From Brevundimonas naejangsanensis (GTDB taxonomy: Bacteria; Pseudomonadota; Alphaproteobacteria; Caulobacterales; Caulobacteraceae): DNA of 64,000 bases. The DNA is taken from positions 2,888,501 through 2,952,500 of the forward strand of contig NZ_CP015614.1 in the NCBI RefSeq assembly GCF_000635915.2, in the 5' to 3' direction. The notes below the pieces were generated by a model. It saw nothing but the letters and a program-made list of their open reading frames with translations. It searched no databases and had not been told where the DNA came from. The position numbers were made by a program, and so were the translations under genes. Shown piece by piece: positions 56,880 through 64,000 of this stretch. Numbering within the stretch: the stretch's first letter is position 1; every line of letters begins with the position of its first letter.

Positions 56880-59405
56880 ATGGTGGCAGGGTTGGAAACG
56901 GTCGAGGCTGTCTGGAACGAGGAAGACGTTCGAAACCTGTATCGGCTCGCATTGCGTCGTGAAGCCGAGGCGGAAGCTATTGTGCAGGAAATGACGGCAT
57001 GGCCGTCGGACAGACTGGTACGCACGTTTTTCACCTCGCCCGAGTTCCTTGAACGTCTGGAGCCGGACTTCCAGAAGGGCGAGCGCCCCTGGCGTGAGGA
57101 GGAAACTAGTCCCAGCGAGCTTCTGCGGGCTTGGGCCGCGGGGCGTCTGCCGCTGTCGGAAGGGGGGCGGCTCGCCATCGTGCAGGCGAGGTCGTGGACG
57201 CGCGTTTACTGGCTCTTGTTCAGCGATCCTCAGTTCAGTCAGGTCGTCGGTCCAGAGTTGATCGGCGGCGCCGAGGTCGTGGCGTGGCTGGAAAAATTCG
57301 CCAAAGCCGATGGCCGGATTGAGCAGGTCGACGGGCACGTGATCCGTGGCTGGGCGGTGCGCTTAGATGACATCGCCCAGTCGGCGATCGTGGAAGCCTG
57401 GTCCGGCGGCGCCTTGTGTTCCGCGACGACAACCAACTTGTTCCGGCGCGACATCCAAGATCGTTTCGGCGGCGACGGGCGCTTTGGTTTTGAACTCAGC
57501 CTACCTGCTGAAATGGCGCGCCGAAATGGCGGCGAGGTCGAGGTCGAAGTCCTGGGCGTCCCGATTGCGCGCGTTCGGTTGCAGCCTGAAGAGCAGGTGC
57601 TGGACGATATCGCGGCGGCGGCGCGAGAACTTGGCGAGGTGCGCGCCTTGCTTGAGCGGCTGGAGGCGCGTCTGCCTGCGGCCGAAAGCGGTCTTGCCCA
57701 GCCTCTGTCCGACTATGGCGCCTACGCTGCGGCTTGGCGCGATAGCGGCCTGGACGCGGCATCGTCGTCACGGAGAGGTTTGGTCGTGGTGGACGCGGTC
57801 GGCGCCCCTCCGCGCGCACTGGATGACACGGTTCGCAGCCTGCTGGCGCAGACGGCGCCGTTGGAGAGGCTGTCCGTCGCTCTCGTCATCGACAGCAGCC
57901 AGGCCGCCTTGGCGGAAGACCTGCGTAATCGGTGCAGTTGGCAGGGACTTGGTGGCGTTTCCATCCATCTGGCCGAGCCGTCGGCGCCGGCCCAGCGTCT
58001 CATGGCTGCGGTCGAACAGGTAGGCGCACGAGGCGAGTTCTGTCTCTTTGTGCGCGCCGGCGATGACCTCGCCCCCGGCGCGGTGCGCCGGATCGCTGCG
58101 CGCATGGACCGAAGCGCCCAGGTGCAGGCTGTCTATTTTGATGAAGATTGCTTTGCGGACGGGCAGCAGGAAATGGACGCCGTTCTGCGCCGCCGCAAGG
58201 ATCCGGTGTTGAAGCCGGGCTTTGACCGGGACCTGCTGCTTCAGACACCCTATGTCGGTCAACGAGCGGCCTTCAACACTGAAGCTCTCCGCCGATTCAG
58301 CTTGGAAGAGGCGGCCGGCGATCATTTTGCTGCTGACCTGATGCTGCGTATCGACGCCGAGGGCGGCGTGATTGATCACGTGGGTCGGGTTCTGTTGAGC
58401 CGGTGGCCTGAAGATTCCGGATCCATTTCTTGGCGCCAGGCGGTCGAGTCTCATTTCCGCGCCGAGGGGGCCGTGGCGTCAGATCATGAAGACGAGCTTG
58501 GCGCTCGCGTTCCAGGGGCTGTGCGCGTGCGTCGTCGTGCCGATGCGGCGAAGGCCTGCATCATTATTGCGACCCGGGACGCCGTCGACCTGCTGCGGCC
58601 TTGCGTGGAGAGCATCTTCGCGATGCGGCCCGCCAATGCGACGCCTTACGAGCTGTTGATCATCGATCATGAAAGCCAGGAGCCTGAGACGCTGGCCTAT
58701 CTTGCGCAGCTGGAGGCCGCTGGCGATGCGCGTATCATGCCGTATCAGGGCGAATTCAACTGGGCGCTGATGAACAATCTTGCTGCGGCCCAGACAGACG
58801 CTGACGTCCTGATCTTCCTCAACAACGACACGGTGGTTCGCACCCGCGACTGGTTGGACGAGCTGGTCAGCCAGGCGCAGCGTCCGAACGTCGGCCTTGT
58901 CGGTTGCCGTCTGCTTTACGCAGACGGGACGATCCAGCATGCCGGCTTCGTCGCGCGAGAAGAGGTGTATTCGTTTCTGACCCATGAGGGCGTGGGCGAC
59001 ATGGGTTCGTCGCCGGGTTATCTGGGCCGACATGCCTTGGTGCATGGTTGCGTCGCAGTAACCGGCGCCTGTATCGCCATCCGCGCCGAAACGTTCCGGG
59101 AACTGGGCGGCTTCGACTCGGCCGCATTCCCGATCGAAGGGAACGACGTAGACTTGTGCATGCGGGCTCAGGCGCAGGGATTGAAGGTGATCTACGACCC
59201 CTTTGCGACCCTCTATCACTTGGAATCAAAGTCTCGCGGCTTCAACACCGACCCTGTGCGCCAGGCCAGGGCTGAGGCGGCGTCGCGGTTGCTGTGGCGC
59301 CGCTGGGGCCCGCAATTCAGCCGGGACCCGGGCTTCAATCCGCATTTCGATCGCTTGTCGCGACCCTTCTCTCGGCTGCGGCCGCCGCCGTCCTACGCAG
59401 GTTGA
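56880..59405 (+). CDS. Large multidomain GT2 glycosyltransferase with DUF4214-like and beta-sandwich modules
   Basis: 841 residues from the ATG at 56880 (GGGGA 5 bases upstream; a GTG at 56865 is the alternative). Domain order: a DUF4214-like pair (NLYRLALRREAEAE, FFTSPEFLERL; and again LLRAWAAGRLPLSEGG, LLFSDPQFSQV), a beta-sandwich (GHVIRGWAVRLDDIA, FRRDIQDRFGGDGRFGFELSLP), a short coiled linker, a first GT2-like domain with a DED site (VYFDEDCF) that looks degenerate, and a second GT2 domain with CIIIATRDAVDLL, LIIDHESQEPET, FLNNDTVVRTRDWL and HGCVAVTGACIAIRAE. The pattern is that of rhamnosyl/O-antigen transferases. The stop overlaps rfbD (TGATG), linking it to dTDP-rhamnose supply. Confidence 0.82.
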   Translation: MVAGLETVEAVWNEEDVRNLYRLALRREAEAEAIVQEMTAWPSDRLVRTFFTSPEFLERLEPDFQKGERPWREEETSPSELLRAWAAGRLPLSEGGRLAIVQARSWTRVYWLLFSDPQFSQVVGPELIGGAEVVAWLEKFAKADGRIEQVDGHVIRGWAVRLDDIAQSAIVEAWSGGALCSATTTNLFRRDIQDRFGGDGRFGFELSLPAEMARRNGGEVEVEVLGVPIARVRLQPEEQVLDDIAAAARELGEVRALLERLEARLPAAESGLAQPLSDYGAYAAAWRDSGLDAASSSRRGLVVVDAVGAPPRALDDTVRSLLAQTAPLERLSVALVIDSSQAALAEDLRNRCSWQGLGGVSIHLAEPSAPAQRLMAAVEQVGARGEFCLFVRAGDDLAPGAVRRIAARMDRSAQVQAVYFDEDCFADGQQEMDAVLRRRKDPVLKPGFDRDLLLQTPYVGQRAAFNTEALRRFSLEEAAGDHFAADLMLRIDAEGGVIDHVGRVLLSRWPEDSGSISWRQAVESHFRAEGAVASDHEDELGARVPGAVRVRRRADAAKACIIIATRDAVDLLRPCVESIFAMRPANATPYELLIIDHESQEPETLAYLAQLEAAGDARIMPYQGEFNWALMNNLAAAQTDADVLIFLNNDTVVRTRDWLDELVSQAQRPNVGLVGCRLLYADGTIQHAGFVAREEVYSFLTHEGVGDMGSSPGYLGRHALVHGCVAVTGACIAIRAETFRELGGFDSAAFPIEGNDVDLCMRAQAQGLKVIYDPFATLYHLESKSRGFNTDPVRQARAEAASRLLWRRWGPQFSRDPGFNPHFDRLSRPFSRLRPPPSYAG

Positions 59406-60289
59406 TGAGCGGGGGGGTCCTGATACTGGGGGCGGGCGGCCAGGTGGGGCGCGCGACCGCAGCCGTTTTGCGCCGCCAGGGCCGCGCTGTGACCGGCCTG
59501 ACACGAGGCGACCTGGACATCACCGACGAGTCCGCCTTGGACGAGGTCTTCCGCCGTGTTCGTCCCGCGACGGTGATTAACGCCGCAGCCTTCACGGCCG
59601 TCGATCGGGCGGAAGCACAACCTTGGCGGGCTGAAGCCGTCAATGGCCTGGCGCCGGGATTGATCGGCGCCTCGGCGCGTCGTCATGGCGCTGCCTTGAT
59701 CCATCTGTCGACGGATTATGTTTTCGACGGAGAGAAGGGCGCGCCCTATGTCGAAGCCGATACGGCGGCGCCGGTGTCGGTATACGGTCGCAGCAAGCTT
59801 GCGGGGGAGGCGGCCGTGCTTCGCTCCGGCGCGGCGGGAGTGATCCTGCGCACGTCCTGGCTGTTGTCTGCAGGGGGGTTCGTCGGGGCTATTCTGTCGC
59901 GCGCGCGCTCTGGCGAGGTGTTGCGGGTCGTCGGCGACCAGAAGGGCCGTCCGACTTTGGTCGACGACCTGGCTCAGGCGCTCGCCGCCCTGGCGCACGA
60001 GACCCTGCCGCAGGCCGCTGAGGTCTATCACTACGCGGGCGCGACCGATGCGACATGGTTCGAGCTGGCCGACGCCCTCGTCGACGAATGGAGCGGCCGC
60101 ACCGGCGCCGCCCGGCCTGTGATGACCGGCGTCACCGCCGCGAGTTGGAACGCCCCGGCGCGCCGCCCCTCTGATTCCCGGCTCGACAGCGGGCGCATCG
60201 CGGCTGATTTCGGCTTGCTGGGCCGGGATTGGCGCGAGGGCGTTCCCGAACTGGTTGAAGCCTGGTTGAACAAGGAGCCGGACCAATGA
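59405..60289 (+). CDS. rfbD: dTDP-4-dehydrorhamnose reductase
   Basis: 294 residues from the ATG at 59405; longer in-frame starts lie inside the upstream gene and lack the Rossmann start. An extended [17 protein letters not shown], the DLDIT and [13 protein letters not shown] motifs typical of Rml[12 protein letters not shown], the catalytic [21 protein letters not shown], and [15 protein letters not shown]. It makes dTDP-L-rhamnose in the last step of the pathway. The ATG overlaps the GT2 gene stop and its own end overlaps rfbA, so the three are co-translated. The genes for the middle steps (rfbB, rfbC) are not in the window. Confidence 0.93.
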
Positions 60290-61170
60290 AGGGCATCATC
60301 CTGGCCGGCGGCGCGGGCTCGCGCCTGCATCCCATGACCACGGCGGTCTCAAAGCAGTTGATGCCGGTCTATGACAAGCCGCTGATCTACTATCCGCTGA
60401 CGACCCTGATGCTGGCGGGGATCCGCGAGATCCTGATCATCACCACCCCGCGCGACCAGCCCGCCTTCCAGAGCCTGCTGGGCGACGGCGGGCGCTGGGG
60501 GCTCGATCTGACCTTCGCGGTGCAGGATCAGCCGCGCGGCTTGGCCGACGCCTATCGCATCGGGGCCGACTTCGTGGACGGCGGCCCCTCGGCCCTGATC
60601 CTGGGCGACAACCTGTTTTACGGCCATGAGGCCGGCCGCGTCTTCGCCCGCGCCGCCGACACGCTGGACGCCCGGCGCGGCGCCGTGGTCTTCGCCTATC
60701 GCGTGTCCGACCCGCGCCGCTACGGCGTGGTCGAGCTGGACGGGCAGGGCCGCCCCCTGTCCATCGAGGAGAAGCCGGACGACCCCCGCTCCCCCTGGGC
60801 GGTGACGGGTCTTTATATCTATGACGGCCAGGCCCCCGAGCTCGCCGCCCGCCTCCAGCCCTCCGCGCGCGGCGAGCTGGAGATCACCGACCTGAACCGC
60901 GCCTATCTGGAGCAGGGCCGCCTGGGGGTCGAGCGTCTGGGCCGCGGCTTCGCCTGGCTGGACACCGGCACCCCCGACAGCCTGCTGGACGCCGCCGCCT
61001 TCGTGCGCACCCTGGAGCAGCGCCAGGGCTTCAAGATCGCCTGCCCCGAAGAGGTCGCCTGGCGCATGGGTTGGATCGACGCCGCCCAGCTGGCCCGCCT
61101 GGCCGAAGGCTTCGGCGGCGCCGATTACGGGGCCTATCTGCGGGGGGTCGCGAACGATGAGGCGCGCTGA
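60286..61170 (+). CDS. rfbA: Glucose-1-phosphate thymidylyltransferase
   Basis: 294 residues. The nucleotidyltransferase motif [16 protein letters not shown] opens the protein, followed by [96 protein letters not shown] and [17 protein letters not shown]. It makes dTDP-glucose, the first step to dTDP-rhamnose. It overlaps rfbD by ATGA. The DNA here is more GC-rich at third positions than in the genes before it, suggesting that this gene has a different history from the glycosyltransferases. Confidence 0.96.
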
Positions 61171-61206: not shown

Positions 61207-62346
61207 TCAGACGCCAGCCCTCAGCGCCCGGTCGCTGAGTTGCTCGGTTCTCAGCGGTCTGCCTTCCTCCCGCCCGGCACGCATCCAGTGTTCGAAGCCG
61301 GATGAGAGGTCGCCTCGGCGCACGGCGTCTTCAACGTCGGGATTAGCGTCCAGGTAGCTCAGCTCTGTAAAGTCGTCCGGCGCCAGCCGTGGCGCGGCCT
61401 CGCCGAGATAGGCCTGCATGAACTGCTCCATGACGTGGCCGACGATTTGGTCCGAAACGTGCAGGCAGTCGAGGCCGTATGCGAACGTCCGAGGGCTCAG
61501 CGTCACGATCTCATAGCTGGGGAAGTAGTCCACGTCCGCGTGACGGGCTTCAAACGCCCCCGCCGCCGCCCGCAACACCGATTTGGACAGGCTGTTCGCC
61601 ACGGCCACGTCTTGATCTGAGAAAGTGGTTCCCATCGGCACGGGCGACACCGTGACCACCATCTTCATTGCGGGGTTCAGCCGTTTCAGGCGCTCGCGAA
61701 TCTCCTCCAGGGCGTCCAGATTGTCCTGCGCGTCCGTGATCTCTAGCTGGTAGCGGTCCGGCCGCCGACGCACCTCCCACGGCCCCGGCGCGGCGTTCAG
61801 CCGGGTATCGGTCTCCTGGTCGCGCCACACCTCGTTCAGGCCAAGGGTCATCAGGACGACGTCCGCCGCCCTCAGCCGAGGGAAGTATTCGGCCGCCAGC
61901 CAGGCCCGCCGCTCCAGGGCCCGTTCCAGCGTCGAACTCTGCAGGCCGGGCGTCAGATGAAGATCGCGCCAGCCGTTGGCCGTTTCCGTCAGGTGCGCTT
62001 GCGGGTCGCCGGGCGGCGTTTCCAGCCAGCGAAGCTCCTGCAGCATGGAATGGGTCGTGAATTTGTTGAGAAAGCCGTTGGCGCGCGCCGGCCATTCCGA
62101 CTTAGGCGACACGACCCTTTTGCTCAGCACGTTCGCGCCGCGATAAATCAAGTGCTCTTCGATATTGCGCGCGAAGCATGAGCCCATGCAGAAAAACCGC
62201 GCGTCGCGATCCAGGCCGAAGCGGGGGGTGTGGCTGATCCGCACCGGCTCGCTTTGAAAACGATCTACAGTCGCCGCCCATTGGCTCGCCTCACTGCGCG
62301 CCGCGCCGCGCCAGGCCTCATTCCCTTCCACCGTGCGGACCGCCAT
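61207..62346 (-). CDS. GSCFA-domain protein with C-terminal ANPDV...EGR motif
   Basis: 379 residues from the ATG at 62346, with AGGAGA 6 bases upstream. The name-giving motif FFCMGSCFARNIEEHL lies near residue 55; LMTLGLNEVWRD and VVTVSPVPMGTTF belong to the same SGNH-like hydrolase fold, which occurs in acyl-modifying enzymes. The C-terminal ~50 residues (YLDANPDVEDAVRRG, FEHWMRAGREEGRPL) match a short motif found at the ends of many surface-glycan and surface proteins. Possible roles are O-acyl transfer to or removal from a glycan. It lies between rfbA and a large secreted protein, and is read toward rfbA. Confidence 0.78.
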   Translation of the reverse strand: MAVRTVEGNEAWRGAARSEASQWAATVDRFQSEPVRISHTPRFGLDRDARFFCMGSCFARNIEEHLIYRGANVLSKRVVSPKSEWPARANGFLNKFTTHSMLQELRWLETPPGDPQAHLTETANGWRDLHLTPGLQSSTLERALERRAWLAAEYFPRLRAADVVLMTLGLNEVWRDQETDTRLNAAPGPWEVRRRPDRYQLEITDAQDNLDALEEIRERLKRLNPAMKMVVTVSPVPMGTTFSDQDVAVANSLSKSVLRAAAGAFEARHADVDYFPSYEIVTLSPRTFAYGLDCLHVSDQIVGHVMEQFMQAYLGEAAPRLAPDDFTELSYLDANPDVEDAVRRGDLSSGFEHWMRAGREEGRPLRTEQLSDRALRAGV

Positions 62347-62746
62347 CGTCTTCTCCTGGGCTGGCCTGCCGCTCATCCAGAGGCCGTCCCGAAACTAGGG
62401 GAAGCGCCCCTCCGGACTCAAGCCGGCAGCCGAAACAAGGCGAAAAAGCGAATAAGCTTTACAATAAGTTCCGCTGCTTTCATCTTAAGCGAATCGCGTT
62501 GGGTGAATTCTCTCAGCGATACCTGCGTTTATAAAGCGTAAGCAAGAACGCAAAAAACATAGAAAATATAGATGTCGAGTTACGTCGATCCATATCGCCG
62601 TCATGCCTTGACGGCGTTCTGATAGCCACGTTAGAAGCAGGTTGCCGTGGCGCAGCCATTCCCCTCACAAGGGTCTGAACTGTGGCCGAAAGGCGCTCAC
62701 ACTTTGGCTACGCCACTCAATTCGTTTCTCTGGGGGACATTCCCGA
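62347..62746. other. Divergent intergenic region with promoter for the secreted protein
   Basis: About 400 bases with no supported protein gene and an AT-rich middle (62450-62580). It holds the GSCFA gene promoter on the left and the putative promoter at 62608-62637 plus a ~100-base 5' UTR on the right. No clear RNA element was recognised. Confidence 0.5.
62608..62637 (+). promoter_or_regulatory. Candidate housekeeping promoter of the terminal secreted protein
   Basis: TTGACGG at 62608-62614 is a full match to the Caulobacter-type -35 element, and GTTAGAAG at 62630-62637 fits 6 of 8 positions of GCTANAWC, with 15 bases between them. Transcription would begin about 100 bases before the ATG at 62747, giving a moderately long leader. 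Confidence 0.5.
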
Positions 62747-64000
62747 ATGACTAAGAAGCTTCTTCTTGCCGCTGCCGCCGTGTCGGCCATCGGCTTCGCC
62801 GGCGCTGCCGGCGCAATGGACATCACGACGGCACGCGTTGCGGGTATCACCGTGTACACGGGCACCACGGCCTCGCCTTACGGTCTGGCTTCGCAAGCCA
62901 CCGTGCCGGTCGCGGGTCTGTCGACCCCCGCGTCGGGTGTGGGTGTTGAAACCGATCTCGTCGTCTCGCTGAGCGCGGGCGCAGGTGCTCTGGCTCCCGG
63001 CAACTATGTGATGACCTTCACCTATACGGGCATCGCTGGTTTCGTGGGTACGCCGCAGCTCCAACTGCAAGGCGCCGCTGGGTGCACGCCCTCGGCGGTG
63101 TTGTCGACGGGTGGGACGGCTACCTCGCAGACCGTTTCTTATATCGTCGGCGTGGATGTCGCCTGCACCACCAACCCGACCTTCCGTCTGACTGCGCCGT
63201 TCAAGATTTCTGCGGCAAACGCTGTTACGGTTCAGGCTTCGCTGACGCAAGGCGGCCTGCCGGTCGATAACAGCCCTTCGGCCACGCGTACGCTGGTCCA
63301 GCCTCGCTCGGCCTATACCGCTTCGGTCAATGGCGCGGTTGACGGAAAGGGCGGCGCTACGGACACTCCCGCCAACGCTGCTGATAACGCCGACTTCCCG
63401 ACTCAGCTGGCTCTGGGGTCCGGCTCGACTCCGTTCCAAGCGTTCCGCACGGGTGCAGAGTTCGATGCCATTATTGGTGCGCTGGGGTATACTTCGGTTG
63501 CAAACACCTACGCCGACCTGTCTAAGACCGCTCTCCCGACGCCGGCTATGGATGTTACGCTGAGCGGTAACTTTGCCGGTCTGACGCCGACGTTGACGAC
63601 CGATGACACCGGTGCCGGCCCTGTCGCGGCTACGACTGTAACTGCATCGACGGCTACTTTCGCTGCGGTGCCGGCCGGCCGCTACAACGTTGTGGTTGCA
63701 GCGACCAGCAGCGCTGCCAACGCTCCGCAACTCGCTGGCGGTGCCTATACGGCCACGTTCTCTTCTGCATCGAGCTCGCCGCTGGCTGCTGGCGCGATCT
63801 CTGCGTCGGGCGCGCTGGAGACCATTGGTCTGCAAGGCACCAACTTTGTGGCTCCGTGGGTGCAGTCGGCCAACCCGAACTTCAACACTGTGCTGCGCCT
63901 GTCGAACAGCGGCGCGGTCACCGGCCCGGTGACGCTTTCGCTGACCAGCCCCGCTGCCACGCCGACGGCGACGACCTGCGGCGCTGCCCAGCTCGCTAAG
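62747..64000 (+). CDS. Secreted Ala/Thr/Ser-rich surface-like protein, 3' end missing
   Basis: At least 418 residues, open to the window edge; the frame was read codon by codon without a stop. GGGGGA lies about 8 bases before the ATG. Residues 1-24 form a Sec signal peptide (MTKKLLLAAAAVSAIGFAGA, then AGA). The mature part is rich in Ala, Thr, Ser, Gly and Val, with few charged residues, strand-like stretches (YVMTFTYTGIAGF, MDVTLSGNFAGL, YNVVVAATSSA) and few Cys (CTPSAV, VACTTNP). No domain is recognised. Composition and position next to glycan genes suggest an abundant surface or S-layer-like protein; this is inference only. Its codons use more GCT/GCG and GGT than neighbours, as expected for a highly expressed gene. 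Confidence 0.75.
   Translation, partial: MTKKLLLAAAAVSAIGFAGAAGAMDITTARVAGITVYTGTTASPYGLASQATVPVAGLSTPASGVGVETDLVVSLSAGAGALAPGNYVMTFTYTGIAGFVGTPQLQLQGAAGCTPSAVLSTGGTATSQTVSYIVGVDVACTTNPTFRLTAPFKISAANAVTVQASLTQGGLPVDNSPSATRTLVQPRSAYTASVNGAVDGKGGATDTPANAADNADFPTQLALGSGSTPFQAFRTGAEFDAIIGALGYTSVANTYADLSKTALPTPAMDVTLSGNFAGLTPTLTTDDTGAGPVAATTVTASTATFAAVPAGRYNVVVAATSSAANAPQLAGGAYTATFSSASSSPLAAGAISASGALETIGLQGTNFVAPWVQSANPNFNTVLRLSNSGAVTGPVTLSLTSPAATPTATTCGAAQLAK

Follow-up and report, generated by a model that had tools for sequence, protein, structure and literature searches.

A candidate S-layer protein of Brevundimonas naejangsanensis encoded beside a type II secretion system

A gene located at the end of the 64,000-nucleotide stretch of Brevundimonas naejangsanensis DNA analysed here (the window, C1:2888501-2952500, part of a single 2.97-Mb contig) probably encodes an S-layer protein that leaves the cell through a neighbouring type II secretion system (T2SS) of its own. 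As far as our searches reached, the best reading is that it represents a family of T2SS-exported S-layer proteins new to Caulobacterales. The first-pass annotation of the window had proposed the product as a candidate S-layer or major surface protein, a prediction that is now supported by a T2SS gene cluster found downstream, by the one-to-one co-occurrence of this system with the gene, and by a C-terminal domain similar to that of the S-layer protein Slr4.

An S-layer is known in the same family, Caulobacteraceae, but it is built from RsaA of Caulobacter crescentus, which belongs to the RTX proteins and takes the type I secretion route (PMC7821379, in the part available, and general knowledge), and is unlike the protein studied here. 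A 2025 survey that started from rsaA states, in the sections at hand, that most Caulobacterales are without genetic potential for S-layers and that rsaADEF is confined to the C. crescentus-segnis clade and to scattered Phenylobacterium (PMC12700997). In the open-access papers searched we found none that joins Caulobacterales or Brevundimonas with both an S-layer and type II secretion; the available portions of PMC11055950 and PMC5380434 are silent on an S-layer in Brevundimonas, and those of PMC10765051 mention Slr4 orthologs in Alphaproteobacteria in passing.

Closer counterparts have been described outside this class. Slr4 of Pseudoalteromonas tunicata is an S-layer protein with a Sec signal, without a Pfam domain when it was described, and with an adjacent gsp cluster (PMC7821379, accessible part). 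It shares with the window protein the Sec signal, the neighbouring gsp cluster and a homologous C-terminal domain, but its mature form is larger (~57 kDa vs 45 kDa), nothing outside the C-terminal part can be aligned, it belongs to marine Gammaproteobacteria rather than to Brevundimonas, and a structured leader is not mentioned for slr4 in the same part of that paper. In A. salmonicida the S-layer gene vapA (49 kDa product) is accompanied by a dedicated T2SS located between wzm and wzt of an rml-bearing O-antigen cluster (PMC4483657, as excerpted); the A-layer with its Sps T2SS thus combines a single S-layer gene, a dedicated T2SS and an rml setting in the same way, with a gene order unlike that of Brevundimonas and with a likeness that rests on the description of the locus. 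NpdA of Paracidovorax citrulli, an S-layer protein of 52 kDa in its mature form, carries a signal peptide and is encoded beside a 12-gene gsp cluster (PMC10765051, partial text); its likeness to the window protein, again taken from the description, consists of the signal and the gsp neighbour, and it is known from Beta- and Gammaproteobacteria.

The gene, its product and its control region

The gene begins with an ATG at 62747 on the forward strand and continues without a stop to 64000, which places 418 codons inside the window. The annotation had reported an ORF of at least 418 residues and had asked for the gene to be completed; this was done from the same contig (C1:2952501-2952710), where a TAA is reached 69 codons beyond the window edge, giving a protein of 487 aa, of which a further 17 Brevundimonas genomes encode full-length relatives. 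The ends of the contig overlap by ~22.85 kb at 98.8% identity (C1:1-22850 vs ~2948921-2971535, with differences mostly within 15-21 kb), which probably reflects an uncircularised long-read assembly rather than a duplication. Because of this overlap the candidate gene is present in two identical copies, the second in the opposite contig end.

By inspection of the sequence, the protein starts with a Sec-type signal peptide (residues 1-23, positions 62747-62815, forward strand), MTKKLLLAAAAVSAIGFAGAAGA, with putative cleavage between AGA and MD. Such a signal is seen by inspection in all 18 sequences, with A-x-A/G sites and with K3 and L7 invariant, in agreement with the N-terminal Sec signal proposed earlier. 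The mature protein has a mass of 45.4 kDa and a pI of 4.65. Its description as Ala/Thr/Ser-rich and poor in charges was accurate: charged residues make up 7.5%, whereas 34 other long ORFs of the window have a median of 22.4% and go no lower than 14.0%, and Ala+Ser+Thr reach 41.4%, compared with a maximum of 27.5% (the 34 ORFs were chosen by length and GC3 and are not proven genes). Cysteines are present in 15 of the 18 relatives (each has 0, 2 or 4; three have none) and, where present, they stand in pairs whose alignment columns coincide or almost coincide in 15/15. Their occurrence only in paired positions, as disulfides would require, fits folding in the periplasm before export by a T2SS; in the window protein the predicted disulfides are C113-C140 and C411-C438. 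The signal and the C-terminus are the best-conserved regions of the protein.

Codon use had been taken as a sign of high expression, a claim that holds by one measure and fails by another. The ribosomal-versus-background codon log-odds of 0.074 exceeds that of 33 of the 34 window ORFs and is typical of ribosomal genes, 20 of which span -0.022 to 0.142. On the other hand, the plain CAI of 0.50 is middling within the window and lies under all 20 ribosomal genes (0.55-0.80), which are the same genes that define the index.

The DNA upstream of the gene is conserved much better than the protein, with a mean column identity of 75% for 12 leaders versus 37% for 18 proteins. The housekeeping promoter and the leader of ~100 bases that had been proposed are both corroborated. 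The -35 element TTGACG (62608-62613, forward strand, as are all elements that follow) has its TTGAC invariant in all 18 loci, own included, and is followed after a 17-nt spacer by the -10 element TTAGAA, read from the upstream sequence (62631-62636). The promoter spacing suggests a transcript start at 62643 and a structured 5' leader RNA of ~104 nt (62643-62746), which is made up of a closing stem and two hairpins, one variable and one with a GAAA loop. The strands of the closing stem, helix 1, are GTGGCG-C-AGCC (62647-62657) and GGCT-A-CGCCAC (62706-62716), with 98.5% of cells paired; the hairpin GCC-GAAA-GGC, supported by folding and covariation, spans 62685-62694, and a Shine-Dalgarno-like GGGGGA (62732-62737) lies partly within helix 5 of the leader. 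In total the leader has 25 pairs with 95.6% of cells paired, and both sides are changed in 6 of them in the structure-fitted alignment from which these counts come (in 5 in the unfitted one). The alignment, A4, comprises 12 of the 18 leaders, with the more diverged L048 and L050-L054 excluded. Five measures all exceed every one of 500 shuffles, and slid controls score far lower; by folding energy the 9 leaders examined are ordinary, with z from -1.9 to +0.2.

The leader model R1 matches its own locus at 62644-62749 with 91.9 bits, this sequence being among those used to build it, and misses 6 of the 18 leaders. Strong matches (E<=1e-16) were found in 13 of 131 genomes, every one at the candidate gene; 12 of them were already in the model, and the thirteenth, in genome G109, was not. 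Five weak matches (E 0.03-0.56) were dropped, and the one that was examined, in G097, appears to be protein-coding. The leader has no match in Rfam. In a subgroup of loci (L050, L051, L052 and L054) the leader sequence is different and the closing stem is a similar CTTGG/CCAAG, as judged from folding for L050 and by eye for the rest. Past the stop codon, 17 of the 18 loci have a putative terminator, a hairpin followed by a T-rich tail; the scan itself required such tails, and the hairpins were judged by eye to be of one type. The conserved promoter, leader and terminator of what looks like a single-gene transcript suggest strong expression.

The locus and its type II secretion system

Upstream of the gene lie a rmlD-like reductase gene (59294-60289, forward strand; PF04321, E 4.1e-85, matched from residue 42, with a true start that is probably later), a rmlA-like nucleotidyltransferase gene (60286-61170, forward strand; PF00483, E 3.3e-67) and a divergent GSCFA-domain gene (61207-62376, reverse strand; PF08885, E 5.2e-52). 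The dTDP-rhamnose genes reported as neighbours are thus present, with the opposite-strand GSCFA-domain gene intervening. On the 3' side, past the window, the gene is followed by gspE, a sulfotransferase-like gene, a GT2-like gene, gspF and a pseudopilin gene, then by gspD and two more genes on the opposite strand, gspG and a second pseudopilin gene, and gspK with another gene, again on the opposite strand (the names gspC, gspM and gspL are assigned from position only). Beyond the gspK region there are rmlC, rmlB, ABC-exporter genes and a Wzz-like gene, so that the T2SS is located inside an rml/ABC-export locus. The sulfotransferase-like and GT2-like genes (L003:9981-11563), both just under the Pfam cut-off, occur in or beside gsp in the window genome and in 5 of the 17 relatives (L043, L045, L048, L055 and L056); it is possible that they modify the cargo or its anchor. 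In the neighbouring GspE, the ATPase of the system (L003:8170-9981, outside the window), an MshE-type c-di-GMP-binding domain is recognised by NF053729 with 56 bits against a cut-off of 38, and secretion by this T2SS may, to judge from this domain, be under c-di-GMP control.

At 1.57 Mb the same genome encodes another T2SS, distinct from this one (GspE 49%, GspF 24% and GspD 24% identical), and a further secretin locus that we read as CpaC-like. It is the neighbouring type of system that follows the candidate gene across the genus: a full-length relative (E<=0.001) and a GspE of the neighbouring type (E<=1e-120) are found in the same 18 of 131 Brevundimonas genomes, and neither in the other 113 (nominal Fisher 1.7e-22, a value blind to kinship). 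Each positive genome has one copy of the gene. Going downstream from the gene along its own strand, the first T2SS gene encountered is gspE in all 17 of the relatives retrieved, although two transferase genes precede it in L045.

These counts come from the four-sequence profile A1, which matched in 22 of the 131 genomes, 18 times over the full length (own genome included) and 4 times partially; the genus was searched with this profile only, not with A2, and more diverged relatives could be missed. The partial matches in G099, G067 and G068 were excluded as what we read as TonB-receptor-like proteins that are alike in the signal region. G109 (L098:9695-9952) holds what is left of a 19th allele at a contig end, namely the promoter, the leader and 38 codons that include the signal; a GspE search of this genome, which is split into 260 contigs, gave no match, and the partial allele was excluded from the counts. 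Among 385 alphaproteobacterial genomes there was no further full-length relative and one signal-only match, which was dropped, and a plasmid search gave no match.

The suggestion that export follows a route other than that of RsaA is supported by the T2SS cluster directly downstream together with the lack of the RTX (HemolysinCabind) repeat, for which the own genome has 0 matches and the Caulobacter vibrioides control is positive. As a marker of mutual exclusion with RsaA this repeat is useless, since it occurs in 85 of the 131 genomes, including 10 of the 18 positives.

Fold, kinship with Slr4 and divergence

Pfam and NCBIfam assign the window protein to no family above cut-off, and sequence searches of the PDB gave nothing convincing. 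Pfam searches of the 18 relatives returned CARDB in two, DUF2807 in one and ZirS_C in one, all of them weak and none an enzyme. AlphaFold, run with the 18 sequences, predicts an all-beta chain (full-length pLDDT 69), whose structural neighbours are mostly Ig-like domains of adhesins, pilins and integrins; no solved S-layer lattice protein was prominent in the fold searches, an absence that is not evidence. The annotation had named an enzymatic domain or an outer-membrane barrel as findings that would refute its proposal, and no enzyme family and no barrel emerged from Pfam, NCBIfam, the AlphaFold model or the fold searches.

The conserved C-terminal domain is a predicted beta-sandwich (residues 354-487, beginning within the window at 63806-64000, forward strand) that reaches a pLDDT of 87 when modelled alone. 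Its fold resembles that of the ASRT/TM1070 (ASRAH) superfamily, with a Z of 11.7 and an rmsd of 2.4 over 104 residues for TM1070 (1nc7) and a Z of 9.2 for ASRT (2ii8). Those who described the ASRAH fold predict, in the text available, that it binds sugars, extracellular glycans included (PMC2739507). The SHExxCxxN-type ligand signature of the ASRT-like family is missing from the window protein, which has no histidine, and for this reason sugar binding by the C-terminal domain is only a guess from fold and context.

In a Pfam scan of the 18 C-terminal domains, two matched the Slr4 family (PF19526), those of L040 (E 0.0021) and L047 (E 0.0029), both from profile position 262 and with 17.8 and 17.3 bits, below the cut-off of 25; CARDB matched five of the same 18 domains. 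PF19526 gave no match at E<=1 in the window protein and 0 in its genome. A search of 398 genomes from across the phylum gave Slr4 members in five, none of them in Alphaproteobacteria, and in 5/5 of their loci gspD, gspF and gspE lie alongside. With these members aligned, hhalign, run on the full alignment, joined the two families C-terminus to C-terminus, over the stretch also matched by the domains of L040 and L047, with a probability of 89%, an E of 2.2e-6 and a score of 56, which none of 150 column shuffles reached (maximum 18.2), and the reversed profile scored 16.6; the homology spans only ~150 C-terminal residues. Judged by sequence, this signal together with the PF19526 scores below cut-off makes the window protein a distant relative of Slr4 in one domain, outside the PF19526 family.

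Divergence of the protein stands out against that of its export machinery. Among 17 genomes (L051, whose contig ends inside gspE, is absent) each of the 136 pairs shows it to be less similar than GspE, with medians of 27% vs 78%. In comparison with B. guildfordensis (L047) the candidate protein is 30% identical, GspE 95% and GspF 98%, and dS is 1.09 for the candidate gene, a rough value at 30% identity, vs 0.23 for gspE and 0.15 for gspF. This elevated dS suggests allele replacement of the candidate gene. The nearest partner by candidate protein also differs from the nearest by GspE in several genomes, and in all 7 pairs examined the candidate gene has a higher dN/dS than gspE and gspF (for example 0.45 vs 0.13 for L041-L043, with the smallest gap, 0.33 vs 0.22, for L044-L045). 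The glycan side of the locus seems to have been exchanged as well: towards B. guildfordensis RmlD (59294-60289) is only 36% identical, while RmlA is 90%.

Proposed mechanism and competing readings

In the mechanism that we propose, a single-gene message would be made from a promoter of the housekeeping type and would begin with the structured leader, which probably stabilises the mRNA. The product would cross the inner membrane by Sec, with removal of the 23-residue signal, fold in the periplasm with two predicted disulfides, and be pushed through the outer membrane by the dedicated downstream T2SS. Outside the cell the Ig-like beta-sandwich domains would build an abundant layer, presumably a lattice, and the conserved C-terminal domain would anchor it, perhaps to a rhamnose-containing polysaccharide made by the flanking genes. 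The exposed body would vary fast, partly via allele replacement, while the frame and the machine stay. A further step, which we take only tentatively and regard as doubtful, would see the locus as a swappable cassette, in which the promoter, leader, signal, glycan-binding anchor, terminator and T2SS with its c-di-GMP-binding ATPase are fixed, the lattice body is recombined under pressure from phages or predators, and the leader RNA, as a specific regulator, matches synthesis to secretion.

The same data could be explained by a surface adhesin or biofilm-matrix protein that the T2SS secretes and that coats or glues without crystallising into a lattice, and this we consider unlikely. Among solved structures, residues ~35-361 come closest to adhesin, pilin and integrin domains, such as the BspA C-domain, with a Z of 8.4 and an rmsd of 9.5 over 246 residues, and LrpA (Z 7.8, rmsd 3.7 over 119 residues), but a Z near 8 may reflect only a common arrangement; the MshE-type c-di-GMP-binding domain of GspE suits biofilm control, and Slr4 itself is a major component of the biofilm matrix, according to the part of PMC7821379 at hand. 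The Slr4-type C-terminal domain, the single copy per genome and the dedicated machine argue for the S-layer instead.

A fast-evolving surface receptor or decoy, a target of phages or predators and not a bulk coat, with a T2SS linked to it merely by co-transfer in a glycan and secretion island, would account for the lower similarity than GspE in every pair, for the higher dN/dS and for the dS towards B. guildfordensis that allele replacement would give. S-layers, however, also serve as targets of phages and predators, and the conserved promoter, leader and terminator suggest strong expression, and we hold this explanation to be very improbable. Enzymes are common T2SS cargo, and sialidase, peptidylarginine deiminase and subtilases do appear in the structure lists via their beta-domains; nevertheless, neither Pfam nor NCBIfam gives an enzyme family above cut-off for the protein, Pfam gives none for the 18 relatives, and the predicted chain of short sandwiches, with very few charged residues and no long-strand barrel in its secondary structure, leaves a secreted enzyme or an outer-membrane barrel independent of the T2SS hardly credible.

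If the S-layer reading is true, it would extend the pairing of T2SS and S-layer to Caulobacterales and tie it by sequence to Slr4. The genus Brevundimonas has been thought to be without S-layers, a view on which the candidate locus bears directly: ~14% of the species examined (18/131) are suggested to have an S-layer of a different family and with a different export route. The candidate coat protein evolves much faster than its export machine, and its diverged alleles on one conserved chassis would provide a natural series for studying what selects for S-layer diversity, and would be equally useful for asking how cargo recognition by a T2SS copes with a changing cargo body.
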